A stretch of DNA of 64,000 nt. Origin: Hemileia vastatrix. Taxonomy: Eukaryota > Basidiomycota > Pucciniomycetes > Pucciniales > Zaghouaniaceae. Below the pieces are notes generated by a model that had not been told where the DNA came from, made no database searches, and was given only the letters and a program-made list of their open reading frames with translations. Below are positions 14,515 through 41,869 of the stretch, one piece after another. Numbering within the stretch: position 1 is the first letter of the stretch; every line of letters begins with the position of its first letter. The position numbers and the translations under genes were made by a program. The DNA is taken from positions 32,749,501-32,813,500 of the forward strand of contig JASXTE010000005.1 in assembly GCA_030280995.1 (NCBI GenBank), given 5' to 3'.

Positions 14515-15035
14515 AATTAAGAATTTCCACATTGTTTCTTCATCAAACCACCATGTTCAACCTTCTTCCCAATTCTGCCTCTGAAATGGGTCCTTGCCAA
14601 TACTGCATTGACAATAATCTAATCTGCACCATGACACCACCTGTCCATCCATACAGAACATCCTGCGATGTCTGCCAATCTAGAAAGAAGTCCTGTTACA
14701 GACCTGGTCCATTATCTTCTGCAACAGCTTCACCTCCACCTCAACCTGGTCCATCTTCTACCAGCACCAAAAGATCTAGGCCATCCATCCTGATACCCAG
14801 ATTAATCAAAAAGCTTCACCCTTCCCAGAAGAGTGCCACAACCCATAAACAACATGTTCCACCATCCCTGGTCCATCTGATGGTAAAAACTTCCATTTTT
14901 TCTTTCCACTTTATAAAACTTATGACTTCTCAATTCCTCCATCTTCTGATAGTGATGATGACAATGTAGGATTCATTGCACCACCAACAGCAAACCACTT
15001 GCCCACTATGAAGGCCAAGTTCCAACAACACACAT

Positions 15036-16150
15036 TATGGTAAGGTAAACTCCTAAAGTCGCCTTGCTGTAAGCAGAATCCGGAGGAGATATGTGGATTT
15101 AGCTGAAAACCCCGTCCTTCCAATAAAAATAACAAAATGGGAATTCTAAATCACTAAGCTAACCAGTCTACTTGGATCTGATTGATAAAAAATAATGAAA
15201 CTCTAAAATATTTAACACTTATTGATATTTAAGTACAAGTGGCTGTTGAGAAAGAAATACTGATAACAACAATTAAGGTGTACCAGTGAAAGATCTGTAA
15301 AGATTGACTTTTATGTTTTTATTATAATTTGAGTTTTTATGAGACAGCAATAATCAAGTCCCAGAAATGAAGACCTTTCTAAAGATACCCTGTATGAAGT
15401 GTGATTTAAATTGTTCAGTAGTATTTCTAAAATTTTATATATAAAATTAAAGTTATAAGGGTATTACAAATTTATTTAATTTGTTGAGTAATAAAAAATA
15501 AGACCGTGGTGGTTAAAGATTAAGCTGTATGATATATCCCCCCCCCTCAATTTCGAGTTTGAGAGGCGCTTAAGTATTCCTTGTCACGTGCCTAAGTTTT
15601 CCCCTCCAGAGCTCTCCCAGAGTCAATCCGGAGCCTGTACGGAGTCCGTACGGAGTCCGTACGGAGTCCGTCCCGACTTCTGAACTCAATTAGAACCTTA
15701 AAAACTATAATAAAAAATCTAAAAAAAATTACACATGATAAAGCTACTTCCCCTTTATATTACAAACTAGTTTTCGTAGTCTGCCCAGCTCTTATTACCC
15801 CGTGAAAATTCATCAAAGTTAAGTAATTTTCTGAAAATGTAAATATTTCTATAAAACTTTAAAATTCATTTAAAAATATAAGAAAAATAGTAAAAATTCT
15901 GGAAAAATTTCCCAAGGTTCTTGAGTGACTCGACTTGATACTAATAAATTTTTCAGACCGTAAAAATAAGTTTTCTCTGTAAAATAAATTGTTTTTGTGT
16001 AGGCATTCGCTCGTGACCAATTTCTTCATATTTAAAACTCAAATAAATTAAATAAAACCCTTTTATATAAAAAATAATAACACCAATATTGCACGCCGTA
16101 ATGACTCTATTTAGGTACTTAGGTGCCATACTAAACTTTAGGCTACCACA
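15036..16150 (-). repeat. E2 3' LTR (left)
   Basis: Direct repeat of 27303-28404. Near 15640-15672 it has a tandem run of the decamer GTACGGAGTC that is shorter and altered in the other LTR, a slippage difference since insertion. Confidence 0.92.
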
Positions 16151-16160
16151 TCCTCCCTCG
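16151..16160 (-). other. E2 polypurine tract
   Basis: TCCTCCCTCG on the plus strand, adjoining the inner edge of the 3' LTR. Confidence 0.75.
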
Positions 16161-16273
16161 AATTGAGAATGTCCCCATTCTTATAACTTTGCATAAGTGG
16201 TCGAACACAATATTCATCTTTAACCTTCAACCACCATCTTCTTTAATCAACTATAAAATTCATCTTCATCAAT

Positions 16274-16965
16274 ATGTCTTCCAAAGAACTTGTCGCTCCA
16301 TGTGAGCTCGGCGCTCGATACCAGGTACCTTGTTTAATGTCCAACCCTAATCTTCCTGGCAGGACAGCTTGCGACTTATGCCATGTGAAAAAAGTCAAAT
16401 GTAACCGGCCATTAGTTCCTTCTAAAACAAACGTATATTTAGGACCAGCAGCTCTCCCTGATCCCTCAACTTCTAAAAAGCGATCAAAAATTCCTGTCTT
16501 CTTAAAACGAATAAGATCAAAAGCAGCTTCAAAAGTTCAATCTTCATCAGCGGATCCCGGCCTTATTTTGCCTTCACAAGATCCTAATCCTATAACGCCA
16601 GTGCCCCCAACCAACTTTGCTGAGACTATGTTTCCTGGCTCTAAATGTAAGACCCTATTATCTTACTAAAAAAAACTTTTAATCATAATTGACTAAACCT
16701 ATGACTTAATAACATATTTGAACTTCTAGCTGTCAAAATAACCAACACTGATGATGTTGGTAGAGTGAAGACGGACTATATCAATCATTATCCAAATTTT
16801 CATCGCTATCTTTTTCTTGACTTTACTAATGAGTTGAAACGAAAAATGCTGGCCTATTTTCAAGAAACTCCAGCTAATAACCATGAAGACCTCATGAAAA
16901 GAAGAATTTTAATGCAAAGCTTTGATAATGATGTTGAAAAATTTCAAAGAAATTATCTTTTCTAA
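16274..16965 (+). CDS. Gene B: antisense cysteine-cluster protein in E2 (spliced)
   Basis: Two exons, 16274-16646 and 16730-16965, join in frame across an 83-bp intron (donor GTAAGA, branch-like TGACTAA, acceptor TTCTAG) to give 202 residues. The N-terminal cluster has the spacing of gene A, but the second cysteine is Gly (CELG), so one zinc ligand is missing. The last half reads CDLCHVKKVKC. A Ser/Pro linker with the basic patch KKRSKIPVFLKRIRSK follows, then a likely helical C-terminus (LAYFQETP, MKRRILMQSF). It lies antisense to E2 pol, beside the 3' LTR. The open spliced frame suggests recent selection; loss of one ligand suggests impaired zinc binding. A role in regulating the element is an inference. 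Confidence 0.75.
16647..16729 (+). other. Intron of gene B
   Basis: GTAAGA donor, TTGACTAA branch-like sequence and TTCTAG acceptor; 83 bp, in the usual fungal size range. Removal restores a single frame. Confidence 0.75.
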
Positions 16966-18112
16966 CAGTATAACTTGATAAAATTTTGTTTTTGCTTGGT
17001 CTTCTTTAACTTTCAACATAAATGTTGTTTTCTTTCTCTCTGGCTTGATATAACATAAAATAAAATAATATAAATCTTGTGATGATTCCACTACTGAGAG
17101 CAAGGTTAGAATCCCTTCAGACTCCCATATACCAGTCTTCCTTCTTGTCACAGTATTGAGAGAGTGGATCTTCCTATGAGCCGAATACTCCTGATTCCAA
17201 CCTCATAGGGCCTACCACTGAGCCAAATTCTATGATGCCAATCTCTCCATAAGGTCCTCCAAGCTTCACACCAAAAATGGCCTACCAATGAGGCACTAAA
17301 AAAATCATTCCCTAAAATCCAACTACCATCCTAACTTCTGATTCATTCATCACAATTTTCAAACTTTGCTATACAGCAAACCCATAAAATACTTTTGCCA
17401 GGCTTCCAATAATAATATTAACTTTAGACCATGTTAAAGCGCCACAAATTTCATCTAATTAACCATTATGCTTTTCTTAGCATCATCACCACCTAAAATT
17501 TTAACCTCCTAAAGCTTATCAGCACCCAATTCCAGAAATAATTGAATAACCAGTTTAGAGTCTTAGTGGACAGTGATAAATTAAAATATTGAATTGAGTT
17601 ATCCAAACAAGATTGACATTCCAGTTTAAAGTCTTGGTGGACCTAACATATAATCGATTGCCAGTTTATGGTCTTGGTGGACCAAAGATCGTTTAGGTGC
17701 ATAAATAACTTGATAAATTCCTAAGTAAGGCCTAGGCTTGACCAAAGATTGAATAAATTTGATAATCCAGTTTAATGTCATAGTGGACCAAACATTTGAT
17801 CGACAAGTAATCCAGTATAAGGCCATAGTGGTCCAATGAATGTTGAATTATCCTGCAGATATTAATTTTCCAGTTTAAAGCCATAGTGGACTAAACAATG
17901 AATGAGCTACCAGTTTAAAGTCATGGTGGACCAAACATTTGATCGATAAGAAATCCAGTTTAAGGTCATGGTGGACCCAACAGCTTGATAACAGCCCAGT
18001 TTAAGGTCTTGCTGGACCTTACAACTTCTCTATCCTTGAACCCAGATTTTGCCACCAGCTTTCTTCATCCTAGTTTCAAGTTTTCTTCTTCAAAAAAATA
18101 TCTCCTAACAAG
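16966..18112. repeat. E2 spacer with nine AGTTTA-GTC-N6-GAC motifs
   Basis: Non-coding stretch between genes B and C. Around 17159-17290 are degenerate repeats containing CCTACCACTGAGCC and AAGGTCCTCC, related to the tandem array of E3 at 31290-31690. From 17551 to 18017 nine copies of a ~21-base motif occur (starts near 17551, 17622, 17662, 17769, 17813, 17871, 17911, 17956, 17997): CAGTTTA, two bases, then GTC, six bases (often TTGGTG or ATAGTG), then GAC. Some copies extend the arm to GGTC/GACC. Confidence 0.75.
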
Positions 18113-19101
18113 ATGAAACCTTCTGACTTTATTGCTTCAGCTGATCAATCTTGCAAATATTGTGCTTTCAGCCATAGGGAATGTATCTTCACTTTCAACT
18201 GGCAAAAGCACACTTATAACAGGGCCTGTTTATCCTGCTATGAGAAGAAAAGAAAATGTTCTGGCTTGAATTGTGGTTCTTTCCCCATTACTGCTACTAG
18301 CTTCGCCGCCTTCTGCAAACCTCCTCCTTCTTCTTCACCTTCTACTCCACCCCCTATTCCATCAACCTCTAAAGATCCCATCCCTTTTTCTCCATCACCT
18401 AATCCTCTGGGTCCTTCTCTCCAATCTAGACTTGCTGCTACTCCCCCAAGAACTCTTGCTTCTCCCAGGGCCATGCTTCAACCTTCTAACAATTCTTCTC
18501 CTACTTCCAACATCTTGAAGCACAAAAGGTCTTATAATAGCCAGCAATCTTCATCTTCTCTTGTTTCATCCAAAAGGCCCAGAACATCTACTTCAAACAC
18601 CAAATCCAACACCAGTCCTCCTCATCTATCAAAAATAAAAAATCCTTTTTTAAACATAAAAAATCCCACTCCATTACCAATTAAGCCGTTTATCTATGAT
18701 CATGATAGTGTTGACACAGGTTAGTTGTCTCTTTTTATTTCTTAATCTTCAGGTTTTAATTTGCTGATATTTTAATTTGATAAGCGTCCACTGGTTCTCC
18801 AATTTCATATTCAGCTTATGAACTACCAGAACCTAATCCAAGCTTCCCTAGAGTTCCAATTCACCTAGTGTCTGAAAAGCTTTTTGCTAATTTTAATAAC
18901 CTTATCGCTTATTTCCAACAATACCCGCCTTCTGATAGATCAGAATCTTGGATGAGAGAGCAACTTTTAAGAGACCTTTTCAAAATAGCCAACTGGCTTC
19001 AACACTATTGTGACCGTGAAATAAGATTCGAATCCCAAGAAATCGATCAAGGTCCTTCTAAATTTTCTAATTTCGATTCTTCAAAAGATAACAACCCTTG
19101 A
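18113..19101 (+). CDS. Gene C: antisense Zn2Cys6-like protein in E2 (spliced)
   Basis: Exons 18113-18719 and 18785-19101 join in frame across a 65-bp intron (donor GTTAGT, branch-like GCTGAT, acceptor ATAAG) to give 307 residues. Near residues 12-47 six cysteines are spaced C-x2-C-x6-C-x14-C-x2-C-x6-C, with YEKKRK between the last two. This is followed by about 130 residues rich in Ser, Pro and Thr with basic islands (LKHKRS, SSKRPRTS), then a predicted helical C-terminus (LIAYFQQYPPSDRSESWMRE). All ligands are present and the frame is open, so this is the best preserved of the four antisense genes. Spacing matches fungal Zn2Cys6 DNA-binding clusters; nuclear localisation and DNA binding are inferred. 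It is antisense to E2 pol. Confidence 0.8.
18720..18784 (+). other. Intron of gene C
   Basis: GTTAGT donor, TTGCTGAT branch-like element and GATAAG acceptor; 65 bp. Splicing joins Thr-Ala-Ser in one frame. Confidence 0.7.
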
Positions 19102-20103
19102 TGGTGTTCTTCCTGGTATGTAGCTTTCTTGAATAATGTTTGAAAAATAAAAATATAAACATCTAAACTACCTAAAACTAAAATACCTTTTATTTTTTTA
19201 TTTTTTTATTTTTATTAATTTATTTTTATTTTTTTTTTATTTATTTTTTTTTTTATTTTATATTTTTAGTTATTTTATTATTTTTTATTATTATTATTTT
19301 TTTTTTTTTTACCATTTAAAATAAAAGATTTTTTTTTTAAAAAAAAATAGTTTTGAAATAAAAGTTAAAATTTAATTTTTAAAGAAAGATAAACGAATGT
19401 GAAAAGAAAGATAAAAAAAGAAATAAATAAAATTTTAAAAGATGCCCCCCGGCCATTTGATGAGCCGTACCCTCGACATCATACCCACATCCAAGTGCAA
19501 CTTGATGTGGTTACACAATTTTGAGAAATTGAAAAGAAAAGAAAATAAATGAAAGTTTTTAGAAGATAATTTTTATAATGATGATCACTGGGTGGGCTCC
19601 CTCCAATTTATAAAAATGATTAGAGACCACCAGTGAGCATCACCTTTACAATAATTCATAATATATATTAAAGAAAAGAAATCACAATCTAACATAAAAA
19701 AATCAAAAACAAAATAAAATAAAAAGAATCTTGAATCCGGCGTTGAGAGCGGTGTCTCTTGATTTGTTCCAGTTTATAGTCTTAGTGGACTTCCTATAAT
19801 TAAAAGACAAAGCCAGGATTCAACTAGAAACAGGGAAAATTTCGGAAACGAACATTATGGGGTAATCGTGTATAGAGCAGCCAGCCCATCAATTACCCCC
19901 ACACTTGCCAATATTAAATTAAGAAGGTTCCCCTGTGAACACTTCTTCCAATAAATTTTAAAAAATTTTCCAACACTATCTTCACCCATATTTTAAGAAT
20001 TTTAAGTTTTCAAAAATTTCAAAGAAGGTCTTCTTGCATTTCGTTAAGTTTCATCGCCCATATGCAGTGTAACGACAGTAAAGTATTTTGATAAAAAGAA
20101 GAT
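19102..20103. other. E2 structured spacer between gene C and pol
   Basis: A T-rich and A-rich homopolymer-like stretch (19190-19440) is followed by four hairpin modules that also occur in E3 and E4. At 19485-19510, CCACATC.AAG pairs with CTTGATGTGG. At 19580-19643 a longer stem starts ATGATCACTGG and ends CCAGTGAGCATC. At 19770-19790 is one AGTTTA motif with AGTC/GACT arms. At 19859-19899, GGGGTAAT pairs with ATTACCCC. No protein-coding signal is seen. Confidence 0.65.
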
Positions 20104-20262
20104 AGTTTATCCTCGTTGCGGAGGTATCCATAAAATTTTGTCGATATCATAGTTTATCCTCATTGCGGAGGAATCCATAAAATTCATCGATATCATAGTT
20201 TATCCTCATTGCGGAGGAATCCATAAAATTCATCGATATCATAGTTTATCCTCATTGCGGAG
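20104..20262. repeat. Four tandem ~47-bp repeats at the end of E2 pol
   Basis: Units contain AGTTTATCCTCATTGCGGAGG followed by AATCCATAAAATTCATCGATA. Each includes the hairpin motif in its CCTC-N6-GAGG form. The array covers the last codons of pol and runs downstream of its stop. Confidence 0.8.
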
Positions 20263-23200
20263 GAAGACTTCGGCACTCCTGGTGCTTCTAGGATAGAACC
20301 GTTTCACTTGATCCGCCGCTACCCTCTTCTTCAATACTACTCCATCCAACTCTTCTAACACATATGAACCGCCGGAAACTTGCTCCTTGATTTTATACGG
20401 TCCATTCCACCTATCTGCAAACATCTTTCCCCGCTGACTTTCCAAACTCCTATTATACACCAAGACCATATCTCCTGGGTTCTAAGGTTTCCTTAATCGA
20501 TGTGCCAACCGCTCATCCCAATATCTAACAGATTGATTTCGGATCTTCATCATCCGCGAATATGCCTTTTCTAAATATTCTTCTTTCTTTTCTAGCTGCA
20601 TCATTCTTGCACACAATAATTCTTCAGTAGTTTTGACTGTGTCCCAGTCAGCTTCTAAATCAACCGGTAAAACTGCTTTCTGTCCAAAAACAAGTTCATA
20701 AGGTGAAAATCCGGTCATCCTTTTGGCAGTGACTTGATCAGCAAATAAAACTAAAGGTAAATAGTGCCTCCACTTTTCGGCACTTGTCCCACACATTTTA
20801 ACTAAAGCATCCTTAATAACTTGATGCCCTTTTTCAACCATGCCTTCAGCTTCAGGATAATATGGGGTTGCTACCCTAACCTTTGATCCAACTTTCAATA
20901 TGGCCTCTTTAAACTCTGTCCCAAATTCAGGACCTCCATCTACCGTCACCAATTTCATCACTCCATATCGATATACCCAATTATTCAAAAAAAATTCTGC
21001 CACATTTTTGGCAGTTAAATTAATAAGAGGAGCTGCCTCTACCCAACCAGATAAATCATCTCTGGCCACTATTAAATATTTATACCGTCCCTCTTTTATA
21101 TGAACGGCATCTAAACTGACTCTCCCAAAGAGCGTATATTCACCGGTCGCGCGTCCAGGTTCTTTTGGCCTTAAATAACTTCGTCTTTGACATTCTTCGC
21201 ATGACTGAACCCACTGTTTAACAGCCATCTTTATGCCAGGCCACCAAAATCAATCAGAAATTCTTCTAAACGTTTCTCCGAGGCCTCTATGCCCAAGATC
21301 TTCATGCGGTGATTTCAAAACTAATTCTTGCCCCTTCTGTTGAGTTATAACTACTTGAGGATTCGGATACCTCCTCCTCATTAAACGTCGACCAGATAGG
21401 TAAAACGTAGATGACTTCCTCTTGATAGCCACCCATTCATCGTCTTCACAATCTTCTGGCCTCTCTAAAGTCAAATAATATTTGACTAACAAAAAATAAA
21501 ATCCAGTCTGACCCCAGACTTCATCTTGAAAATTGATTAATATAACATCAATAGGGACTTCTCTATCACCAATATCACCTGCACATGAATGAGCCAATAA
21601 TCTTTGACCCCTAAATAAATCTTTAATCGAGCTATGTCGACGTTTTTCTTCTGAACCTTTGGATCCTTCGTAAACCGTATTCGAAAATACCTCTTTCTCT
21701 TTATCCACCCTTTTATTTTAATTCTCTAATTCTCCAACATATACACCATTCCTTAATTTACTACTGTCCCACACTACCAATCCATCTTCCTCTACATACA
21801 CCACATCTTCTTCTACCTCCTTTCTACCGAATTTATCTACACCTTTTCCAACACCTTTATTAACATAAAAACTATTTTCCAGTTTATCCTCTTGGTGGAG
21901 GTCATCATCACCATAATCTAAACACAATAGTCCTGCCAGTTTAACCTCATGGGGGAGGTATGGAAAGTCTTCAGCTCCTTTAGTGCTGGCTTTGATAATA
22001 GGTATATCTTCATCGAACTCTTCTGAGTCTGAATCTTCTTCAGTGGGTGGTCTCCTTGATAAACCATCTGGCATAGTAAAAGTTTTGCCAGGCTTATGAA
22101 CTAAATCAAACAAAAAATGTTGAATAAAAGCTACCCATCTCGTCATGGGTGCATTTGGTAAACATGGGGAATTAATCATCTGGATTAAAGATTTTGCATC
22201 CACTTGCAACTCAAAATGTTGCCCCCACAAAATATGCTGAAGTTTCTTCAGTATTTTCGCCACACCACATAATTCCAATTTTGGTTGAGAATATCTTGAT
22301 TCGACCTCAGTAAATACTACAGATTCATACCTAACTGGCCTGATGTAACCAGCTTTATCCATCTGAGACAAAACCGCCCCAGCTGCAACCTGACTTGAAT
22401 CAACTGCTAAATAAATTCTGCCAGCATCTTTTCCATAATCCAACTTGTGCAGGACTAAATCCTTCCCCACAACCTCCTTCAACTTCACAAACGCTTTCTC
22501 ACACTCTTCATCCCACTCCCAGTCTGCATCCTTTCTTGTTAACCGTCGCAATGGAGCTGCCAATGAAGAAAAGTCCTTGATAAACATTCTAACATATACA
22601 CAAACGCCTAAAAACCCTCTAACTTCGGTCGTATTCTTGGGTCTTTTCCAGGACTGAATTTTATTTACTTTCTTCTTGGACATAATCCTACCCTCTCTAC
22701 ATACCACATAGCCTAATATTTCTAAGGCTGGAACACAACATGAAAATTTTGAACCTGAAATAGTTAAACCAGCCTCTTCAATTCGAAACAAGATTCTTTC
22801 TAATGTAATTGAAAACTCCCAAATGAATTTGCGTATCCCGGGATTCTCTTCCAACACCTGGTTATCATAGTCGGTTGTTGGTCCCTTAATTCCTCCATCA
22901 TCTATAAAGATTCCAGCATATTGTGGAATTTCATCTTGAAGGATCCAAGCCATCTGAGCTTGATAAACTGCAACCAAATTTGTTGCTCCTTGAGGTAATC
23001 TTGTTAACTGTAAACGTCCAAGTGGCGTATCGAATGTAGTGAGAGGCCTTGAGTCTGGATGTAACTCTCTCTCATCATATCCACCCATAATATCTCCCAA
23101 ACCATAACACACTCTCCCTGCAAACGCTTCAACAAACTCCTCAGCACTAGGCAGTATCCCAGCATCCTTTATTGTAACCCTTTTTAATTCCCTAAGATCA

Positions 23201-24537
23201 TGAACAACTCTAAGCTTGCCATTTGGTTTCTTGATATAAAATACCGGACTAGAATAACTTGATGTTGATTGCTCATACAGTCCAGTGCGTATCCATTCTC
23301 TGACAACTTCAATATAGGTTTCTTTTAATGCAGCCGGAATAGGAATCGGTTTCTGCTGCCACAGTTCATGACATACCACAGGAATCTTGTAAGGCTCCCC
23401 ATAGGAATGCTTCAACACACCCCTCTCCTCTTCTACAAAAGCAATGGCCTTCTCTTGCTTGACCATCACATCCAACAACAACTTCTTCTCTTCTCCAGAC
23501 AACCAACCATCAGGTCCAAAATTAACAACACCCAGTCTCTCAAAAGTGATTCTTGACGTCTCAGAAAATTCAGGCGGATTCTTTACCAAGGGACTTTCAT
23601 AAGGATCTCTTGATAACCTTGGTCTTCTCAAGGGTGGATTTAATTCAGCAGGTAGCCGTTCATTAATAGGTCGAACTTTATTTGCTACTTTCTTATATTT
23701 GGCTGACTCCACATCTAAATAAACTTGAGGTAAAACATTTACTTTTGTATTGCCATTACATATTTCATCAAATGAATCTTCTTCATCGCCAGAATCGGAA
23801 TAAGAAAAATTAGAAAAATATTTTATTTCATTATTAAATTTTACCCTTTTCTCCTTTCCCTCGTCTAATTTATAAACAGATTTTCCAACACCTTTGCTTC
23901 ACTTATCCAACAGTAAATCACCCGTAAAGAAAGTTGGCAGTTTCACCTCTTGCTGGAGAACTGGAAATGAATTTTCACAAAAAAATTTTTTTTGTGTTTT
24001 AATTATACTGAGATTTTTTATTTGATTTTGATGTGATATTTGCAGTTTACCCTCTTGCTGGAGGCCCATAATAGAAGGAGATACTTGCAGTTTAACCTCT
24101 TGCTGGAGGTCCGGAATAACATTTTCACATAAATTATTTTTTTTTGTTTTAATTATACCGAGATTTTTAATCGGGTTTTGATAAGATTTTCGCAGTTTAC
24201 CCTCTTGCTGGAGGTCCATAATAGAAGGAGATAATTGCAGTTTAACCTCTTGCTGGAGGTCATAAAACATACCCTTCCAATTTTTATCCAACCTAATTTG
24301 GCCCATTTTGCCTTTTTCACCATTTTTAAATTTAATAGAAAAACCGGGTAAATCCAATAAACATATAGAAAAGTCCAAAACGTATTTGCACTCCAAAGTA
24401 ATATTAACAGAAAATAATTGAGAATCCACTTGAATTATCTCCAAGTGAGCTGACCTATTGCAATCCGGGATCTCATCCTGAGGAGAGATTACAACATTAG
24501 AGTGATCAGCCCCTGCTACCCCATAAAATGAGGGCAT
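20239..24537 (-). pseudogene. pol: E2 pol: linker, reverse transcriptase, RNase H, integrase (four in-frame stops)
   Basis: One frame runs from 24537 to the terminal stop at 20239, overlapping gag by 22 bases in the -1 frame. In-frame stops lie at 23899 (TGA), 21718 (TAA), 21250 (TGA, where E4 has Arg) and 20482 (TAG). The linker (24537-23720) has five hairpin-motif copies. RT motifs: LGDIMGGYDERELHPDSRPL, LPQGATN and the FIDD catalytic box near 22900. RNase H starts at VDSSQVAAGAVL and has ELCGVAKIL. Integrase has HEDLGH and CEEC zinc ligands, a catalytic D (SLDAVHI), D (VDGGPEF) and E (GMVEKGH), and a C-terminal GPY module (RWNGPYKI). There is no chromodomain, unlike E1. The length and order are those of Ty3/gypsy pol. 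Confidence 0.88.
23920..24265 (-). repeat. Five in-frame hairpin-motif copies in the E2 Gag-Pol linker
   Basis: Plus-strand CAGTTT(A/C)(A/C)CCTC-TTGCTG-GAG(G) occurs near 23938, 24042, 24088, 24194 and 24237. Read in element sense, each encodes the peptide core LQQE(V/G)KL. The ~150-bp units also share the neighbouring ISHQNQIKNLSIIKT-like peptide, so part of the array arose by tandem duplication. Confidence 0.85.
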
Positions 24538-27125
24538 TCATCCCTTTCCAACAAACATAATTCACCAGAATCCGTCCGTTTTATATGCCGCTTCTTGGTG
24601 CAAACACAACACTGGCACAGAGTAGTAATCCCTGGCCGTGTTTCCCAACCTTCATCTCCAGGAGGCGCTAACCGCATATGTAACCTCCGCATATCTTCAC
24701 CAGTGATTTCCAAACTAATCCCCATGCCAGCTTGATACCCTATCCTGGCCTCAAAATTTATCAAAAAAGGACCACTAAGAACAGTTTTTACTGCTCCACT
24801 GGCCACATAAAAGTGAACCTTACCAACAGATCCACCAATGCCTAACCTGACATGCTCAGCTGTGCCCATTAGCTCTGTTGCATGCCCTCCAATGCCTCTG
24901 AGGTTTCCCCCAGTTCCACTTTTAATTGGCAAGCCTATACTCGTCGCTTGCTCCAATGAAATTAAATTAATTTGAGACCCTGAATCGACCAAGGCCTTTA
25001 CTTCTTTACCGTTTAGAGTTACCACCAGGTAACCCAGGGGAGCGGAAAAATGTGTATCTACATCTTCCCCAAACTTTTCAGCATTTTCACAAATATATTC
25101 CACCTCTCCAGTGGAAACCCAACGCTTCGTCACATGCTTCTTTTGCTTTTCAGCAAGCGCCGGACTAATCGTAAATAACTCCCCCAAAGATAAGGGAATC
25201 TGCAGTTGATTCACCCTATTCAAAACTGCGTCCATCGCATTAGCTTGGCCAGAAACTACTGGCCACTCATACTGGACCTTTGATTTAACAACCATGGCCC
25301 TGGGTACCTCTTGAGGTCCAACCGAGCCATCTTCACCTCCCATAATAACATCTTCACTTTCTATAACCCTAACTCTGTCACCAGCTTCTTGCACTAATCC
25401 TGATCCATTGCTAGTCCTTCTTACTCCCTCCATTGGGATGGGACTGCTAAAACTTGGTCTGGGTAGAGATGCCAATGGTACGTCCTCCTCAGAATCCAAA
25501 TCATCCTCTGGCATAGGCTCACCATTTAAATCAAACTTGCCATAACTAGGGGGCCCCATATCAGCAATCCCCTTCTGCATTTTATATAATTTGTCCTTAG
25601 AGTAAGGGTTCAATTTGTTGGCGGCAGTTTGAGCACTAGAATTCTTGTCCTTAGAGTAAGGGTTCACTTTTTTATTGGCCTTGCCAGGATTAGCCCTCAA
25701 TTGGCTCTGAATGCTACTCTTCATCTTAGTAGCAGCTGCTCTTCTAGAAGCATTAACATCGTATTCGCCAGCCATACAGCTACCCTCCACCTGGGCAACC
25801 ATCGCCAGCTCTAAACCACCAAAAGAAGTAGAAAATGTGGCTTTACTGACCTCTTTCTCCTTGCCCTTGTCAGCTTTACCACCATTACCATTACCATTTT
25901 TGCCACCCTTGGCATTAACATCTTCATCCTTCACCTCTTCAAATCTGGCTCTCCTTTCAGCCGTTAAACTTCTTCTGACCAAATGAGAAGGAGACTGTCC
26001 ATCACTGGGCTTGATGAACGAACCATCAGGAAATTTATAAACTTTACCATCAAATAAAACTCGCCCAGCATCCATATCCTTATCAAGAGCAAAACAAACT
26101 GTTGCTCTGTGCCCCCTCCTATTACAATAGGAGCACACCTTTGGCTCATCGTAGCCACCTCTATATCCATTACCACCATTCCCACCATTTCTCCCATTGC
26201 CTGGGAAGCGGTTACCATTATTATTGCCATTATAATTTTGACGTTCATAACCTCTGGACTGATAAGAAGTTGAAGTCGACGAAGAAGCAATTGGGGCCTT
26301 ATTGGCCTTCTGGGTTTCTTGAACAAATATTTTTAACTGTTTAGTTAAATCGGCCAAATGATCAACCATCTTATTATCTACATTGCCCTCAACTTTAGCA
26401 GCAGGTAATCCCATTTGTGTCTTCTTGGCCTCCTGGGATTTGACCATAATATTGTTGTTTTCGGCCAAAACTTCGCTGACCTTGCTAACATATTGAGTGC
26501 ATGACTCTTGATATTTGTCCAACGCTAACAACTTTAGATGGGCCTGAATGTTCTCTTTGATAGCCTCCAGAGCCGGCAGTTTCTGCTCACCATTAGGCAG
26601 TTCCTTCATCAAATCATTTCTTGAAAGATCCTTCAAGACGTCCATTCGAATATCCCTGCTGCATGCTGTCCAAAACAAATCTTTTGCTTGGTTCTCATGC
26701 ACTAACTTGTCCACCAGTATGAGATATTCCACCACTTCATCAAACTGAACACAGAGCTTTTTGAAGTCAGCCATAGAAGAAACTCCACCTTTTGCTTGCC
26801 AGTCTCCAACAATTTTATTGAGGTCCATCATAGTAAACCTAACACCCCATCTATCAACCATAGCTTTAGAAAGCTTAACCCAATCCTTGTCCTTGAATGC
26901 CTGCATAGCAATAACCTCTTTTTCCACCTCCCTATCAGCAATAAAAAATCTAACTTGCTTCACCATGTCCACATGAGAAGCACCATCAACAGCAGCAGCA
27001 GCTTCATACCTGCTAATGAACCATTTAACCTCCTCCCCATCAAACTTTGGGCCATCCCAAGAAACAATTATAACTGAGGGAGTAAGAGGGTTAGAAGATC
27101 CAGAAGCAACAGCAGAAGAAGACAA
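24516..27125 (-). CDS. gag: E2 Gag-protease polyprotein
   Basis: Uninterrupted 869-codon frame starting at the Met near the primer-site side. Order: a capsid-like N-terminal half (WDGPKFDGEEVKWFISRYEA near residues 24-43; an AMVDRWGVRF block near residue 95), a Gly/Asn-rich basic stretch, one zinc knuckle (CSYCNRRGHRATVC, near residue 330), a variable Ser/Pro-rich region with MEGVRRTSNG, and an aspartic protease with LVDSGSQINLIS near residue 720. It ends in a Cys-rich tail (CQCCVCTKK). It would form the particle, bind RNA and mature the polyprotein. Pol follows in the -1 frame. Its intactness contrasts with the broken pol. Confidence 0.9.
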   Translation of the reverse strand: MSSSAVASGSSNPLTPSVIIVSWDGPKFDGEEVKWFISRYEAAAAVDGASHVDMVKQVRFFIADREVEKEVIAMQAFKDKDWVKLSKAMVDRWGVRFTMMDLNKIVGDWQAKGGVSSMADFKKLCVQFDEVVEYLILVDKLVHENQAKDLFWTACSRDIRMDVLKDLSRNDLMKELPNGEQKLPALEAIKENIQAHLKLLALDKYQESCTQYVSKVSEVLAENNNIMVKSQEAKKTQMGLPAAKVEGNVDNKMVDHLADLTKQLKIFVQETQKANKAPIASSSTSTSYQSRGYERQNYNGNNNGNRFPGNGRNGGNGGNGYRGGYDEPKVCSYCNRRGHRATVCFALDKDMDAGRVLFDGKVYKFPDGSFIKPSDGQSPSHLVRRSLTAERRARFEEVKDEDVNAKGGKNGNGNGGKADKGKEKEVSKATFSTSFGGLELAMVAQVEGSCMAGEYDVNASRRAAATKMKSSIQSQLRANPGKANKKVNPYSKDKNSSAQTAANKLNPYSKDKLYKMQKGIADMGPPSYGKFDLNGEPMPEDDLDSEEDVPLASLPRPSFSSPIPMEGVRRTSNGSGLVQEAGDRVRVIESEDVIMGGEDGSVGPQEVPRAMVVKSKVQYEWPVVSGQANAMDAVLNRVNQLQIPLSLGELFTISPALAEKQKKHVTKRWVSTGEVEYICENAEKFGEDVDTHFSAPLGYLVVTLNGKEVKALVDSGSQINLISLEQATSIGLPIKSGTGGNLRGIGGHATELMGTAEHVRLGIGGSVGKVHFYVASGAVKTVLSGPFLINFEARIGYQAGMGISLEITGEDMRRLHMRLAPPGDEGWETRPGITTLCQCCVCTKKRHIKRTDSGELCLLERDECPHFMG

Positions 27126-27282
27126 CCCAATAAGTAATTAAAAGCGTTAACAATCGAAAAAATAACAAGCCTCTTGCAGGCCAATAACAAAAATCCAATT
27201 AGAGTTCCAGAAAATAAGCCTCTTGCAAGCTAAGAACGTTCTTGATCCAAGTAAGTCTTTTGAAGAAAGCTAGAGAAATCGA

Positions 27283-27300
27283 ACCCCATGTTGGGCGCCA
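27283..27300 (-). other. E2 primer-binding site (tRNA-Lys)
   Basis: In element sense TGGCGCCCAACATGGGGT, two bases from the 5' LTR. It is complementary to the 3' end of eukaryotic tRNA-Lys(CUU) (...CCCACGTTGGGCGCCA) with one mismatch. Confidence 0.8.
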
Positions 27301-28404: not shown

Positions 28405-28566
28405 ACATCTCAACCGAAACAACTTCTGCTTCTCTACTTCCAATTCACTTCTGCTAGAGATCCGCAGGACATTGAGAACAGAAGACACCTCATTCACCAG
28501 TTCAAGGCTAATTCTGAACACTTCATTTCATCTCTTGATACCCACTGTAATTCCACTAGTACTTGA

Positions 28567-29186
28567 GTTTGATTCAGAAAAGAAAAATTGACCACACCTT
28601 CTATAGGATGTAACCACAAAACAACCCTCAATTTTAAGTCTTGGGGGACCATCCTCATTTTATAGTCTTGGGGACTCAAAAACCCTCAGTTTAAAGTCTT
28701 AGGGGACTCAAAAACCTAAATCATAAACCCAGAACCAGATATCAACCACATTAAGACACAGAGAAAAAACTAACAATCTCGGGTAATTGTTAATAGAGCT
28801 GCCAGCCCATCAATTACCCCCAAACTTGCCTTTGCTAAATTTGGAGGCTCCCCCTGTGGATACCCTCCACTAATCTTTCAAAACCAACTCCAACAACAAA
28901 ACCCATTCCTCAGTTTATAGTCTTGGGGGACTAACACATTGTTCAGTTTAAAGTCTTGATGGACTATTAGAAATTCCAGTTTAGAGTCATAGAGTATTGT
29001 CTTGAAATCAGCCAGTTTAAAGTCTTGGAGGACTGACAGAATTTTGCATAAAATAGACGCAGCTAATTTCATACAGAGCACATCTACAGGCAAACTGCTG
29101 AACTTCCACCTTCACTTCATCATCAGCCCATCACTGACAAAAATCTTCTTCTTATCTCTTTTCATCATCTTTTCTCATCACAGATT
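28567..29186. repeat. E4 spacer between genes A and D with hairpin motifs
   Basis: Equivalent to the B-C spacer of E2. Seven AGTTTA-type motifs occur near 28630, 28657, 28687, 28911, 28943, 28977 (decayed) and 29013, mostly with AGTC/GACT arms. One GGGTAATTG/CAATTACCC module is at 28781-28819. No coding sequence was recognised apart from these. Confidence 0.7.
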
Positions 29187-29881
29187 ATGGCTGGATCCCC
29201 TGATGTTAACCCTTCTACTCTTCCTTGCTTCAATGCTCTTAAGGACTATGCCTGCAAACAGTGCATCCACATGTGCAGACCTTGCACATTCACTCTTCAA
29301 ACTCCTGAAGCCAAATTCTACAACAGAGCTGGTGATTCTTGCTACTCCAACAAGAAAAAATGCAACAGAGATTCCAACTACCCTATTCCTCCTCCTTCAC
29401 CTTCTCATAAATACATCTCCAGATCCCCTACCAGATCCCCAGAGCTTGGTCCTTCCTCTTCCTCTTTATTTTCAGCACCTTCCAGAAGATCCAGAAGCTC
29501 AGCTTCCAGAACTCTCCCCAAAAGACCAGCCATAGCTTCGCAAGAAACTGCTTTTATCTCTGCTAACTTAGCTCCAAAAGATTCCCTAGGCTTCTAGACT
29601 GCGTCCAGGCGGCCCGGCTGACGTCGGGCGGCCCACCCGCCTCACTAGACAGTGAAAATCAGGCTCAAAACCTCCAAAAACAACCAGAAAACAGCCAAAT
29701 TCAACCAAACAACGAAAACAACTCCACGCAATTACCTCCCACTGCTCCCAGAGCAATGCAGCCAACCCTTCCAAGGTCCAAAAACTCTAAATTTTCCCAA
29801 ACTTCTAGGAGACCTGCAAGAGGACCCCAGGAAGAAACCAGAGCACCCAACACTGCATCAAAGCAACAACTTTTCCCCCGG

Positions 29882-31156
29882 TGTAGAGTAGACTCCTACA
29901 GTTGCCTTGCTGCAGGCAGAATCCGAGGGAGTTGGAAAAACAAAAAGAAATCCCGTTCCCTCTAAGTAAACGTAAGATTCAATTAACTAAGCTTGAAGAT
30001 CTGCTTGAAGAGTTGGATAAGTTGAAAATCTGAGAGAACGACTTTGTAAGTGTTGGAAAACTAATACCAGATTACACTGATACCAGTCACAGAAAATACT
30101 TTGAACAAGCCGCAACACTTTCCCAAGAGACTGAAAAGTACAGTAAAGTACCCCAGAAACTACCCTTGGGATGGTCTGTTCAAAGTTGCCTTATTAAAGG
30201 TCTGCCCCAGATTTACCCAGTTTCCCACCAATATTAAAGAGTGTTCTTTATTATATTTTTATTTTATAAATTTTATAAGAAAAAAAGTAAATTTGAGTCA
30301 CCAAGGATGAGAGCTATCCAATGGTACCCTATATGTTGATATTTTTTATTATAATTGTTGTTATATGTTAAATATTGTTAATTATCATAAAGACCCTTGT
30401 TATCAAAACTAAAAGACAAAAAACATGTAGAAGACTAAGATTCTCCTTCTTATATCTGATTCTCCTCCTCCAGACATTTCCAACAATACCCTACATGCAT
30501 AGGATCTACAATAAACTATTGATCTAACAAGCATGATAAATTCTAACCAAATTTTTCCACAATAGCCAAACTTTTCTGAAGTGACCAAACTTTGCACTGG
30601 TGATAATAACTTTTCTACAGTGACCAAACTTTACCACAGTTCCCAGACTTTTCTGCAGTAACCAAACTTTGCACTGGTGATCAGACATTCCCATTGTGAG
30701 CAAATTTTGCCACAAGGAGCTCTTTTTGTCATAATGAGCTAATTTGGCCAGAGTAAGTTACTCTTTTCACCATAACCAAACTTTTCCACAATGACAGAAT
30801 TTTTCCAGTACACTTCGCTTTTGCACCGGAAAATCACCGGAGCGAACCGGAGCCCACCGGAAAAAAATGGCTACTCCATGAGCACACTGCATCCACCAAA
30901 AATACCAAGAGAGCCCTAGAAAATCCAGTAAAACCAATACCCAATCCATGAAACCATCAAATAACAATAGGAATACCAACATATTTCCATTCCAAAACAC
31001 CATAAATCCTCCAATAAATCACCATAAATCCACCTAAAAAAAACTCCAGTTAACTCCCTTCAACCAAATTAACACCCGCTAACACCATGATTTTCTTCCA
31101 ACCAAGGTCCAATCAAATTTTCACCTAAGTAGCCTACCCAGATTTCGAATGCTACA
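29882..31156 (-). repeat. E3 3' LTR (left)
   Basis: Direct repeat of 39718-40971 and close relative of the solo LTR at 58957-60228. The stretch 30540-30800 consists of degenerate ~20-bp repeats around GTGACCAAACTTTGC. The purine tract follows at 31157 (TCCTCCCTCC on the plus strand). Confidence 0.93.
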
Positions 31157-32736
31157 TCCTCCCTCCAATATGGAATGTCACCATTCCATTCTGAATCACA
31201 TAAAAAACTTTTCCACCATCTTTTCAATAAAAATTTTGCTTCTAAAGTTGACTCCACTTGATTTTTGATGCTTCAATCTGCTGAGTATGAAAGAGTAGGC
31301 TTTAAACCCTACTGAGCTAGAACTGCAATGATCTAGAGACCGCCATGAGGTCCTCCAAACTCCTCTACCATTCACCTCCAACAAAAAAAAATAAAAAATA
31401 AAAAAGTGGGCTGTCATCTCCACTGAGCCAGAACTGCAATGATCTGGATATCATCATGAGGTCCTCTAATTTCCAAAATGACCAACTACAGAAAAGAAAA
31501 TTTAGAGAGTGGGCTTTCATCTCCACTGAGCCAGAACTGAAATGATCTGGACATTGCGATGAGGTCCTCCAATTTTCAAAATCACCAACTACAGAAAAGA
31601 AAATTTAGAGAGTGGGCTTTCATCTCCACTGAGCCAGAACTGCAATGATCTGGACATCGCCATGAGGTCATCCCATTTTTAAAAACGACCTCCACTTGAA
31701 TTTTCTTGAGTCATCAAGCGCAAAAATCACCAGTTTATAGTCTTAGAGGACTTCCACCTGCATCACAAAACCAATGCTAGAGATCAATCTATAAACAATA
31801 AAGCATGTAAACGATCTTTGTTGGGTAATTGTGTATAGAGTTTCCAACTCATCAATTACCCCCAAACTTGCCAATATAAAATCTAGAACGTTCCCCAATG
31901 AGCACTTATAACTAAACAAAATCCTCCTAAAATCTTGACCATTATAATTCCTAGTTTTATTAACATCTTTAGTTTTCCACGGTCTTGAAGTTTAGGACCA
32001 ATCATAAATGATCTTGAAAAGAATTTCAGTTCTAAGTCTTGATGGTTTAGAAGAATAAATAAAATAAATATATAATAAAAGAAAAAGATAAATAAAAAAA
32101 TAAAAGATGTCCCCCAGCCATTTGGATGAGCCAAACCCCTGACATTATACCCACATCCAAGTGCACCTTGATTGTGGATACACAGGAAAGAAAAATTAAA
32201 AATATAACATAAAATGAAATTTTTGAAAACAAATTATTTTTGAAAAAAATAATTTTTTTTTTTTGAAAATATTTTTTTTAGTTTTTTTATTTTTATTTTT
32301 TTAAAAAATTTTGAAAATTTGAAGATTTGAAAAATGATAATTTAATGAAAATCAAGAAAACAAACTAATGATCACTTGGTGGGCTCCCTCCAATTTGTAA
32401 AATTGATTGGAGACCACAAGTGATCATCCACCCCAATACAACAAAAAAAATAAAACAAAACAAAATTCTTGAATCCAGACTTTCAAAAGATTGTGCTGTG
32501 TTTACATAAGTTTCAAGTTTATAGTCATAGAGGACTACCTATATAACAAAAAACAAAGCCAGGATTCAACTAGAAACAGAGAAGGGTTGGAAACAAACAT
32601 TATGTGGTAATTGTGAATAGAGCTGCCAACTCATCAATTACCCCCAAACATGCCAATATTAAATCTAGAATGTTCCCCTGTGAGCACTCCTAACAAAATT
32701 CGTTTCCCCCTCATATTTTCACCACATAATAAAATT
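31157..32736. repeat. E3 3' spacer: tandem repeats and hairpin modules
   Basis: Four ~110-bp tandem repeats at 31290-31690 share CACTGAGCCAGAACTG, CAATGATCTGGA and CATGAGGTCCTC. Then come an AGTTTA motif (31732), a GGGTAATTG/CAATTACCC module (31823-31862), a CCACATCCAAG hairpin (32151-32177), the ATGATCACTTG/CAAGTGATCAT stem (32368-32427), another AGTTTA motif (32515) and another GGTAATTG module (32606-32642). No antisense gene remains. The long T/A runs near 32240-32310 look like slippage products. Confidence 0.75.
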
Positions 32737-35700
32737 TTAAAATTGAAGTAATGATTGATTTTTTGAAAGATTGTGAGATTTCCTAAAAGATTGATGTTGT
32801 AGTTTATCCTCATTTTGGAGACAAACTTCAGCACTCTTTGTTCCCCTAGGGTAAAACTTTTTCACTTTATCAGCAGCTACCCTCTTCTTTAAGACAACAC
32901 CATCCAGTTCTTCCAAAACATATGAACCACCAGAAACCTGTTCTCTAATCCTATATGGTACATTCCATCTATCAGCAAACCTTTTCCCCCACTGACTTTC
33001 CAAGCTCCTATTATACACCAACACCATATCACCAGGCCTCAAAGGCTTCCTGAGTCTATGAGCCAACCTTTGATCCCAATACCTGACAGACTGATCCCTG
33101 ATCTTGATCATCCTATCGTATGCCTTATCCAAATATTCCTCCTTCTTTTCTAACTGTTGCATTCTAGCACAGAGCAAATCTTCAGTAGTTTTGACTACAT
33201 CCCAATCAACACCAAGATAATATTCAGCTTCAAGATCAACCGGTAAAACACCTTTCTGACCAAAAACTAATTTATAAGGAGAATAACCAGTTGTCCTCTT
33301 GGTGGTAATCCTGTCAGCAAATAAAACAAGGGGTAAATAATGCCTCCACTTTTCAGCACTTTTTCCACACATTTTAACCAAAGCATCCTTAATAACTTGA
33401 TTCCCCCTTTCAACCATTCCTTCTGCTTCAGGATAATATGGGGTCGCCACCCTAACCTTTGAGCCAATTTTTGAAACAGCTTCCTTGAAGTCTGCACCAA
33501 ACTCGGAGCCGCCATCAACAGTTACCAACTTCATATCACCATACCTATACACCCATTCCTTCATCAAAAATTCTGCTACATTTTTAGCAGATAAACTAAT
33601 AAGAGGGACAGCCTCAACCCAACCAGACAAATCATCCCTTGCCACAATCAAGTACTTATATTTACCTTCCTTGATGTGAACAGCATCCAAACTAACCCAT
33701 CCAATGATAGTATTTTCACCAGTAGCATTTCTAGGTTCTTTTGGCCTTAAATAACTTCTTCTCTAAAATATTTCACATGACTGAACCCAAGATCTAACAG
33801 CCATCTTCATTCCAGGCCACCAAAATATATCAGCAATCCGCTTATAAGTTTCTCAAAAGCCCCTATGCCCTAAATCTTCATGAAGAGATTTCATCACCAT
33901 TTCTTGACCTTTTCTTTGAGATACAACAACTTGAGGATTCAGATGTCTTCTTTTCATCAACCCTCTACCAGAAAAATAAAAACCAGGTGACTTCTTTTTG
34001 ATAGCCACCCATTCAGCTTCATCACATTCTTCTGGTTTTCCCAGAGACAACAAATATTTCACCATTAAAAAATAAAACCCAGTCTGGCCCCAAATTCCAT
34101 CAGAAAAATCCAATAATATAACATCCAAAGGAACCTCCCTGTCTCCAATATCTCCCACTTGTGAATGAGCAATCATTCTCTGAGCATTCGGCTGTTTGCT
34201 GAAATACACATAATCCACCTCATTCAAACATTTTCCATGCTACCACTATCCTCCTTCAGATCCCAAACATAAACACCAATAAACAACTTCCAATTATCCC
34301 AAACAAACACACTATTCTCATCTACAAAAACCTCATGATCAACTAGATCATAAACTTCATCAAATTCAACAAAAATAGAACCAGCCAGTTTAACCTCATG
34401 GGGGAGGTATGGAAAGTCCTCAGCACCCTTGGTACTGGCCTTTATTATAGGTATATCTTCATCAAACTCTTCTGAATCGGAATCATCTACTGTAGGTGGT
34501 CTTCTTTACAATACATCAGGCATAGTGAAAGATTTTCCAGGCCTGTGCACTAAATCAAATGAAAAATGTTGAATAAAAGCTACCCACCTAGTCATTGGAG
34601 CATTAGGTAAACTAGGTGAATTAATCATCTGAATTAAAGATTTAGCATCCACTTGAAGTTCAAAATGTTGACCCCATAAGATATTTTGAAGTTTCTTTAA
34701 AATTTTTCCCACACCACAGAGTTCCAACTTTGGTTGTGAATATCTTGATTCCACCTCAGTAAAAACTAAAGATTCATACCTAACTTGTCTAATATAACCA
34801 TCCTTATCTATCTGAGAAAGCACTGCACCAGCCGCCAGCTGACTAGAATCAATAGCTACATAAATCATACCAGCTCCTTCACCATAATCTAACTTATGAA
34901 AAAAAATATCTTCATCAACCACCTTCTTCAACTTAACAAAAGCTTCTTCACAAGCTTCATCCCAATCCCAATCAGCATCCTTCCTAGTTAACCATCTCAA
35001 TGGAGCAGCCAATAATGAGAAATCCCTAATAAACATCCTAACATAAACACATACTCCCAAATTTCCTCTAACTTCAGTAGTGTTTCTCAGTAGTGTTTCT
35101 AGGTCTCAGAAAAGATTGAATTTTGTTGACTTTCTTCTTTGACATAATTTGGCCTTCCCTACACACCGCATGACCAAGAATCTCTAAAGCTGGAACACAA
35201 CAAGAAAATTTAGAAACGGAAATAGTTAAACCAGCTTCTTTAATCCTAAACAAAATCCTTTCCAAAGTTACTGCATACTCCCGAATAAACATCCTAATAC
35301 CTTGATTCTCCTCCAACACTTCATTATCATAATCAGTTGAAGGACCTTTAATTCCTCCATCATCAATAAATATACCAGCATACTGTGGAATTTCATCTTG
35401 AAGAATCCAAGCCATTTGTGCTTGATAAACAGCAACAGAATTAGTAGCACCTTGAGGTAATCTAGTCAGCTGTAACCGTCCAAGCGGAGTATCAAAAGTT
35501 GTCAGAGTTCTTTAATCCGGATGTAATTCTCTTTCATCATAGCCCCTCATAATATCACCCAAACCATAACATACTCTTCCAGAAAAAGCATCAACAGATT
35601 CCTCGGCACTTGGAGGAATACCAGCATCTTTTATAGTCACCCTATTCAATTCACTAAGATCATGAACCACTCTAAGCTTTCCATTAGGCTTCTTGATACA

Positions 35701-39421: not shown

Positions 39422-39439
39422 CCCAAATAACACCAGAAA

Positions 39440-39610: not shown

Positions 39611-39695
39611 TAACCAACCAATCAAAATCCAACAACCAGAAAACCAAAATCCAGAAGTCCAACAAGTAAGTTTCTTCAGAAGCTAGAGAATTCGA

Positions 39696-39713
39696 ACCCC
39701 ACGTTGGGCGCTA
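39696..39713 (-). other. E3 primer-binding site (tRNA-Lys)
   Basis: TAGCGCCCAACGTGGGGT in element sense, one mismatch to the tRNA-Lys(CUU) complement; four bases from the LTR. Confidence 0.78.
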
Positions 39714-39717
39714 AAAA

Positions 39718-40971
39718 TGTAGAATAGACTCTTACAGTCACCTTACTGCAGGCAGAATCCGAGGGAGTTGGAAAAACAAAAAGAAATCCCTTTCCCTCTA
39801 AGTAAACGTAATATTCAATTAACTAACCTTGAAGATCTGCTTGAAGAGTTGGATAAGTTGAAAATCTGTGAGAAGGACTTTAAAAGTGTTGGAAACCTAA
39901 TACCAGATTACACTGATACCAGTCACTGCAAGTTCTTAGAACAAGCTGAAACACTTGCCCCAGAGACTGAAAAATACAGTAAAGTACACCAGAAACTACC
40001 CTTGGGATGATCTGTTCAAAGTTGCCTTATTAAAGGTCTGCCCCAGATTTACCCAGTTTCCCACCAATATTAAAGAGTGTTCTTTATTATATTTTTATTT
40101 TATAAATTTTATAAGAAAAGAAGTAAATTTGAGTCACCAAGGATGAGAGCTATCCAATGCTACCCTATATGTTGATATTTTTTATTATAATTGTTGTTAT
40201 ATGTTAAATATTGTTAATTATCAAAAAGACCCTTGTTATCGAAACTAAAGGACAAAAAAGATGTAGAAGACTAAGATTCTCCTCCTCCATACCTTTCCAA
40301 CAATACCCTACATGCATAGGATCTACAATAAACTATTGATATAACAAGCATGATAAATTCTAACCAAATTTTTCCACAATAGCCAAACTTTTCTGCAGTG
40401 ACCAAACTTTGCACTGGTGATCAGACTTTTCTACAGTGACCAAACTTTACCACAGTGCCCAGACTTTTGTGCAGTGACCAAACTTTGCACTGGTGATCAG
40501 AATTTCCCATTGTGAGCAAATTTTGCCACAATGAGCTCTTTTTGCCATAATGAGCTAATTTGGCCAGAGTGAGTTAATCTTTTCACCATAACCAAACTTT
40601 TCCACAATGACAGAATTTTTCCAGTACACTTCGCTTTTGCACCGGAAAATCACCGGAGCGAACCGGAGCCCACTGGAAAAAAATGGCTACTCCAGAAGCA
40701 CACTGCATCCACCAAAAATACCAAGAGAGCCCTAGAAAATCTAGTAAAACCAATACCCAATCCATGAAACCATCAAATAACAATAGGAATACCAACATAT
40801 TTCCATTCCAAAACACCATAAATCCTCCAAAAAATCACTATAAATCCACCTAAAAAAACTCCAGTTAACTCCCTTCAACCAAATTAACACCCGCTAACAC
40901 CATGATTTTCTTCCAACCATGGTCCAATCAAATTTTCATCTAAGTAGCCTACCCAGATTTCGAATGCCACA
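39718..40971 (-). repeat. E3 5' LTR (right)
   Basis: Direct repeat of 29882-31156. In element sense it begins TGTGGCATTCG and ends TCTATTCTACA. The repeated GTGACCAAACTTTGC motif array is at about 40375-40620. Confidence 0.93.
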
Positions 40972-41357
40972 CCGGTTAAGACAACAAAACTACACCTCTC
41001 CTCTGTCAGCCAACTATTCTTCTGACAGTTCCATTTCCTCAAAAGCTCCATCCAGAAGAGATCAATCTGCTTCCAAATTACCCTCTCCTGCTCCATCTTT
41101 TAACAACCCTGGTACTCCATCACCAGAACATCCTTCAGTTGAATCCAACAGAAATATCCACCACAACAACAACAACAGTCCTGCTGCTCCAACTAGGCCC
41201 CAGGAACATCAGCAACCTATTTCACCTTCTCAAAATCTTTCAGAGGAAGACCAAGAGAATCTATATCTTTACCTGATTGATCCACCTACTATGACCATTC
41301 CAAAATCTTCAGAAGTCCAAATTCCAGCTGCTTACAAATTTGATGAGCTTCCAATAT

Positions 41358-41426
41358 GTAAGTACCAAATTATTTCATCCCATTTCTTCAACAAAAATAA
41401 TTACTGATCCAATTCTTCTTGTCTAG
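41358..41426 (+). other. Intron of gene D
   Basis: GTAAGT donor, TTACTGATCC branch-like element and GTCTAG acceptor; 69 bp. It occupies the same place relative to the C-terminal domain as in genes B and C. Confidence 0.7.
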
Positions 41427-41869
41427 TTGGAACACCTTTTCCTGAATCTACTATTTGAGTTGGCCAACCTCTAGAAACTTTTTTGACCCTGAATTATGGA
41501 GACATGAAACAACACCTAAGCACCATGTGTTCCAACATGCTGAAAGCCTTCGCCCTCCATGGACCTTTGAATGACTTTGAAAAATCCCTGAGAAAGCACC
41601 TGTTGGACGACCACTGGAAGATGTCTAGGATCATTAAGCACACCTTCCAGCACTCCATTCCTGCCTCTTCTTCTTCCTCCTCTAAACTTCCATCCAAACC
41701 CATTCCTGACCATTATAACCCATATAATATCTCCATCAGGATGCACTTCAAAGAACACAGTGCTTCCCACAACCCCAAAAAAAAACAAAAAAAACATCAT
41801 AATCCGGACCAGCCTCCAGAAGCTTCATCATCCAGACAAAGAGCTCCTGCAAAAAGATTAGAAACATAA

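Follow-up and report, generated by a model that had tools for sequence, protein, structure and literature searches.

Our analysis of a 64,000-nucleotide stretch of Hemileia vastatrix DNA (assembly GCA_030280995.1, contig JASXTE010000005.1, positions 32,749,501 to 32,813,500; hereafter the window, whose numbering is used throughout) revealed that two of its three related, nested Ty3/gypsy retrotransposons, E2 and E4, each carry a pair of related genes, antisense to gag-pol, in the interval from pol to the 3' long terminal repeat (LTR). The gene models, the strand and the splitting of two genes by later insertions all confirm an antisense gene pair that an earlier note on this DNA had proposed. 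The explanation we favour, which we rate a little short of an even chance, is that E2 and E4 are members of a rust-type lineage with two duplicated antisense accessory genes that would encode DNA-binding regulators of the element's own LTR. A fuller version is possible but doubtful: the elements would encode their own promoter-specific transcription factors, permuted Zn2Cys6 proteins encoded by two antisense, intron-bearing genes and recognising helically phased CGG arrays of the LTRs, with one gene driven by the LTR, the other by an internal array, and gene-less relatives using the products in trans. New here are the resemblance to Zn2Cys6 domains with swapped halves, the CGG arrays (10-11 bp spacing) in the LTRs of E2 and E3, and an upstream array belonging to the LTR-distal gene.

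All four genes (A to D) are read on the + strand, towards pol. In E2, gene B adjoins the 3' LTR and is followed by C; in E4, A adjoins the 3' LTR and is followed by D. The outer element is E4 (13420-50615), within which E2 (15036-28404) and E3 (29882-40971) sit, so that A is interrupted by E2 and D by E3, and both E4 genes are further degraded. Genes B and C are open reading frames (ORFs) after removal of a predicted intron. The gene pieces are as follows.

14553..15035, + strand: gene A, first piece, with all six Cys (14595-14696), linker and putative donor at 14883
28405..28566, + strand: gene A, second piece past the E2 insertion, with C-terminal helical domain and stop
16274..16646, + strand: gene B exon 1, encoding a cluster with 5 of 6 Cys and the linker
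16730..16965, + strand: gene B exon 2, C-terminal helical domain
18113..18719, + strand: gene C exon 1, encoding all six Cys (18152-18259) and a long Ser/Pro linker
18815..19101, + strand: gene C exon 2, C-terminal helical domain; alternative acceptor at 18785
29187..29881, + strand: gene D, first piece, whose cluster has 5 of 6 Cys; frame break at 29595-29597
40972..41357, + strand: gene D, linker past the E3 insertion
41427..41869, + strand: gene D exon 2, with an in-frame stop (41456-41458) ahead of the C-terminal helical domain

The proteins share a layout of cysteine cluster, Ser/Pro-rich linker and C-terminal helical hairpin. B, C and D each have a predicted phase-1 intron immediately before the C-terminal domain. 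Gene A has a frame shift ahead of its intron donor, which is phase 1 in the second frame; that frame stays open up to the E2 insertion and has no in-frame acceptor. The common intron position described in the earlier note is therefore upheld for the predicted introns of B, C and D and for the donor of A, but not for the acceptor of A. A G+C-rich stretch in gene D (29595-29650), with six CGG/CCG triplets in 70 bp, is unlike the remainder of that gene.

The similarities of A to B and of C to D, also claimed in that note, exceed those of shuffled proteins, A1/B1 identity being ~0.43 over aligned codon positions. In neutral simulations of B exon 1 run to comparable divergence, the ORF was kept in 0 of 300 runs at d=0.7 and 1 of 300 at d=1.0, and the A1/B1 protein score was reached in none of 300 at either distance. 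The A-B and C-D protein similarities thus outlast neutral decay, which argues for past purifying selection. Third-position identities, given as observed/random, were 0.35/0.28 for A1/B1, 0.29/0.30 for C1/D1, 0.30/0.24 for C2/D2, 0.42/0.25 for A2/B2, 0.40/0.30 for A1/D1 and 0.48/0.30 for B2/C2. Nonsynonymous divergence (dN) was 0.09-0.19 in pol pieces and 0.58-0.95 in antisense pairs, except B2/C2 (0.53); synonymous divergence (dS) of the antisense pairs ranged from 0.99 to saturated, so dN/dS is not fixed. These comparisons indicate that the antisense genes were long under protein-level constraint, yet are changing much faster than pol. The same positions and homologous proteins likewise indicate, as had been suggested, that the gene pair was present before E2 and E4 diverged.

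The proteins had been described as Zn-cluster-like, a label that can now be sharpened to Zn2Cys6-like with swapped halves. A cysteine pattern like that of Zn2Cys6 domains occurs in the four genes only, with six of six positions filled in A and C and five of six in B and D. Against the Pfam Zn_clus profile (PF00172, cut-off 21 bits), residues 31-45 of B scored 19.2 bits at profile positions 1-15 and residues 13-30 of A scored 18.4 bits at 17-35. When cluster halves were compared, three of eight pieces matched: the second half of B (22.3 bits at profile 1-15), the second half of C (16.3 bits at 1-15) and the first half of A (15.7 bits at 16-35). In a sequence profile comparison with the PDB, nine of 13 matches at E<=10 were Zn2Cys6 regulators (LAC9, LEU3, GAL4, AlcR and PPR1); LAC9 was best (E=0.0072), and both it and LEU3 align with the halves exchanged. 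Basic residues in the second versus first half number 3/0 in A, 3/1 in B, 4/2 in C and 3/2 in D, and in these comparisons the basic half, which contacts DNA in canonical PF00172, stands second rather than first. We treat it as a lead, consistent but with weak statistics, that the putatively zinc-binding cluster is a permuted Zn2Cys6 domain.

The C-terminal domain, whose helices the earlier note had regarded as common to the genes, is predicted to fold into a helical hairpin (helices 16-36 and 42-74; predicted local distance difference test score, pLDDT, ~89-96 over residues 21-60), in support of that view. Comparison of the hairpin with PDB structures gave 261 matches at E<=10 and none at E<=0.001; the ING4 dimerisation domain, ranked second at E=1.2, was not taken as evidence of relationship. 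One weak NCBIfam match among six pieces was rejected, and no Pfam match to TRP28 (PF04195), bZIP or CCHC-like domains was found at E<=10 using all of C but just exon 1 for A, B and D.

The gag-pol of all three elements lies on the - strand. Features of the elements themselves are listed here.

13420..14504, - strand: E4 3' LTR (boundaries; 93% identity to 49524-50615)
49524..50615, - strand: E4 5' LTR (boundaries), without a phased CGG array
15036..16150, - strand: E2 3' LTR, CGG at 15629, 15640, 15651 and 15662 (spacing 11, 11, 11)
27303..28404, - strand: E2 5' LTR, CGG at 27895, 27906, 27917 and 27928
20260..27137, - strand: E2 region of gag, protease (PR), reverse transcriptase (RT), RNase H (RH) and integrase (IN)
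29882..31156, - strand: E3 3' LTR, CGG at 30827, 30838, 30848 and 30858
39718..40971, - strand: E3 5' LTR, three phased CGG
31157..32790, no strand assigned: E3 region between pol and 3' LTR, flanking modules kept, both genes absent

LTR pair identity and Kimura two-parameter distance are 0.930 and 0.074 for E4, 0.955 and 0.046 for E3, and 0.966 and 0.034 for E2. Four-base target duplications are ACAT (E2), CCGG (E3) and CCGC/CTGC (E4, three of four bases matching). A tRNA-like primer binding site and, beside the 3' LTR, the polypurine tract (PPT) GAGGGAGGA occur at the expected places in all three. Pfam matches PR, RT and RH, then IN, in E2; PR and IN pieces are present in both E3 and E4, and RH in E4. 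The E2 RT-IN frame has at least two interruptions, the stops at 21718-21720 and 21250-21252. The RT-IN regions of all three elements are similar to protein P0001, and the nearest named matches of E2 pol, among the best 120 of 234, come from Puccinia striiformis, with identities of up to 70%, and Austropuccinia psidii, at 56-63%. Judged by sequence, E2 and E4 are members of a rust-type Ty3/gypsy lineage. Scans of viral contigs gave three stretches with E2 pol and seven with a 10-protein alignment, and a scan of genome contigs for related loci by pol gave nine, none of which was confirmed. E2 (insertion at 15036) and E3 (29882) both landed in E4's antisense genes and share E4's orientation, the number of events being too small for a test of insertion preference. 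Elsewhere in the window are another gypsy-type element, E1 (7402-9841, +), with RT, RNase H and integrase pieces and no CGG cluster, and an E3-like LTR in opposite orientation (58957-60228, 80-85% identity) whose CGG spacing has decayed.

No trace of genes A to D was found in the E3 region at 31157-32790. E3 retains there the PPT-side start, one copy of a 22-bp module described below and hairpin modules, and has repeats weakly similar to the B-C spacer of E2 (best E=1.5e-4). Pol DNA identity is 0.738 for E2-E3, 0.703 for E2-E4 and 0.708 for E3-E4. Grouping of E2 with E3 had modest support in trees of integrase (0.866; 221 columns and 19 sequences, three of 22, P0013, P0045 and P0050, having been dropped for coverage) and RT (0.816; 104 columns, 22 sequences), and grouping of all three had support of 0.996 and 0.961, respectively. 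These sequences are most simply explained if E3 lost both genes; that E3 never had them is less favoured because E2 and E3 fall together in both trees, albeit modestly supported. The gene pair therefore looks ancestral but dispensable in cis. Of the three related elements, E3 has neither gene, which counts against the note's description of the genes as conserved in the family.

Many Zn2Cys6 proteins bind CGG triplets. The maximum number of CGG/CCG triplets per 70 bp is nine in both E2 LTRs and eight and six in the E3 LTRs, each of which was reached in none of 300 simulations. Both LTRs of E2 and the 3' LTR of E3 have runs of four CGG at 10-11-bp spacing; in order-2 Markov simulations allowing spacings of 10-12, none of 100 windows reached four and one reached three. 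The 22-bp module, CCAGTTTAAAGTCTTGGTGGAC, is present in 15 copies (<=3 mismatches; expected 0.00), all on the + strand: eight precede C, four precede D, and single copies lie at 19769, 31730 and 42837. The two arrays are located as follows.

17550..18017, + strand: oriented 22-bp module, eight copies, directly upstream of gene C
28686..29033, + strand: 22-bp module, four copies, upstream of gene D

TATA-like strings, which are frequent in A+T-rich DNA anyway, lie close to the right-hand end of the E2 LTR (16064-16066, +), ~210 bp ahead of the B ATG.

If the favoured explanation is right, the 3' LTR would supply an antisense promoter for the proximal gene (A or B), transcribed left to right, and the distal gene (C or D) would be driven by its own upstream 22-bp array. 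Introns would persist because antisense splice signals are absent from the sense genomic RNA that gets reverse transcribed. The proteins would enter the nucleus, where the helical hairpin may dimerise them, and would bind the phased CGG of the LTRs, raising or damping sense transcription. They would also act in trans, and gene-less relatives such as E3 would live on the proteins of others.

Several results weigh against this explanation. B and D are each short of one Cys, whole proteins A to D are under the Pfam cut-off of 21 (C at 9.4 bits, D with no match), and the predicted structure of the cluster is poor (mean pLDDT 57.7). No homologue of C was found at E<=1 in a protein database (1704 candidates), nor any match at E<=1 to an exon-1 profile of A to D (3834 candidates); the database contains Puccinia and Austropuccinia proteins, and the search requires shared 5-residue words, so its null is weak evidence of absence. 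Gene-bearing E4 has no phased CGG array, its LTR clustering of four triplets being within chance (P 0.17 and 0.14), yet E3 carries an array without the genes. The G+C-rich stretch of gene D is also dense in CGG/CCG, the E2 array may in part be a simple tandem duplication, and the idea of CGG sites was formed post hoc, after inspection of the sequence.

Three kinds of hairpin module lie beside the gene positions, those of E2 together spanning 19440..19945 on the - strand between gene C and pol.

19440-19525, - strand: M2 of E2
19578-19645, - strand: M3 of E2
19855-19945, - strand: M1 of E2

M1 has six copies over E2, E3 and E4 (19855-19945, 28775-28868, 31818-31910, 32600-32690, 42665-42757 and 42926-43018), M2 has four (19440-19525, 32106-32192, 42046-42131 and 42225-42308) and M3 three (19578-19645, 32368-32435 and 42470-42535). 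Changes on both sides were seen at three of 18 predicted pairs of M1 in at least one copy (a count made without a covariation control), two of 20 in M2 and one of 22 in M3; Rfam gave nothing at gathering score. Conserved hairpins beside the gene positions in all three elements, and the concentration of basic residues in one cluster half, would suit proteins that act not on DNA but on element RNA or the particle (export, packaging or a Gag-like chaperone), with clusters that bind nucleic acid generally. We consider this unlikely, as the hairpins are kept in gene-less E3, the cluster resembles Zn2Cys6 halves in the Pfam and PDB comparisons, and the Pfam search described above gave no CCHC-like match.

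It is similarly improbable, in our judgement, that the genes are cargo, that is, host Zn-cluster genes captured once and carried along without a role for the element. In favour of cargo, E3 moved without them, their introns and tandem arrangement resemble a piece of host DNA, and one Cys is gone from each of B and D. Against it stand the shared positions in E2 and E4, only 70% alike in pol DNA, and a protein similarity that neutral decay would erase; the word-based search, in a database that includes Puccinia and Austropuccinia, found no host homologue. We give a lower rating to the idea that the antisense transcripts matter and the proteins are secondary, with a convergent unit making silencing or anti-silencing RNA: the LTR-proximal and internal upstream arrays are directed towards pol, but protein constraint and splicing phase are kept, and third positions are near random in A1/B1, C1/D1 and C2/D2. 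An arms race with host silencing, in which the proteins would be counter-defence or other host-facing factors, would fit the fast change (dN as given above for antisense genes and pol), but we hold it to be just as improbable, since such change is also expected of disordered Ser/Pro linkers and saturated dS precludes a test for positive selection.

Rust genomes are swollen by Gypsy elements (PMC12210899), and if elements do encode regulators that have sites in their LTRs, this would offer a testable account of the control of some rust retrotransposons. Our search of the open-access full-text literature showed no fungal case of such antisense genes among the matches listed, in agreement with the earlier note's statement that none is described, and the words 'antisense' and 'zinc' are absent from the main text of the rust genome papers PMC12210899 and PMC10067951. 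Accessory ORFs are known from LTR elements of bdelloid rotifers, where the types named include env, DEDDy, GDSL, CC and TM (PMC5408684); E2 and E4 share the presence of such ORFs but encode other protein types. With fungal Zn2Cys6 regulators (PF00172; GAL4, LAC9 and LEU3) the A to D proteins share the six-Cys pattern, complete in A and C but with 5 of 6 Cys in B and D, one basic half and partial Pfam and PDB matches; they differ in that the half resembling the canonical first stands second, in that whole proteins are sub-cut-off and in being encoded by a mobile element. A permuted Zn2Cys6 domain, if true, would represent a novel layout of the DNA-binding domain that is most common in fungi.

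Antisense accessory genes in the slot between pol and the 3' LTR are already known from plants and deltaretroviruses, the latter exemplified by HBZ of human T-cell leukaemia virus type 1 (HTLV-1), which is mentioned in PMC11963269. HBZ resembles our genes in being antisense and adjoining the 3' LTR, and the reading as a nuclear regulator would be analogous. HBZ has a bZIP domain and is a single gene, whereas the E2 and E4 antisense genes are paired and gave no bZIP match. For the plant Retand elements, PMC11963269 describes antisense ORFs in this slot in every cluster; TRP28 occurs in 97% and tandem repeats in roughly half, and the ORF products are suspected of binding DNA and proposed to act as regulators. 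E2 and E4 resemble these Retand/Tat elements in having antisense ORFs in the same slot and tandem repeats in the region, whose length is ~4.1 kb in E2 versus 2.9-6.6 kb in Retand (PMC11963269). They differ in their fungal host, the phased CGG arrays in LTRs of the rust elements, the lack of a TRP28 Pfam match, and the possession of two duplicated genes with predicted introns and a Cys cluster. The proposed regulatory role is best read as analogous to that of the Retand antisense ORFs. Because the coding is antisense, a retrotransposon can keep genes with introns, and a fungal case with an unrelated protein, if true, would be an independent, convergent origin and would suggest a slot that is generally used for regulators.

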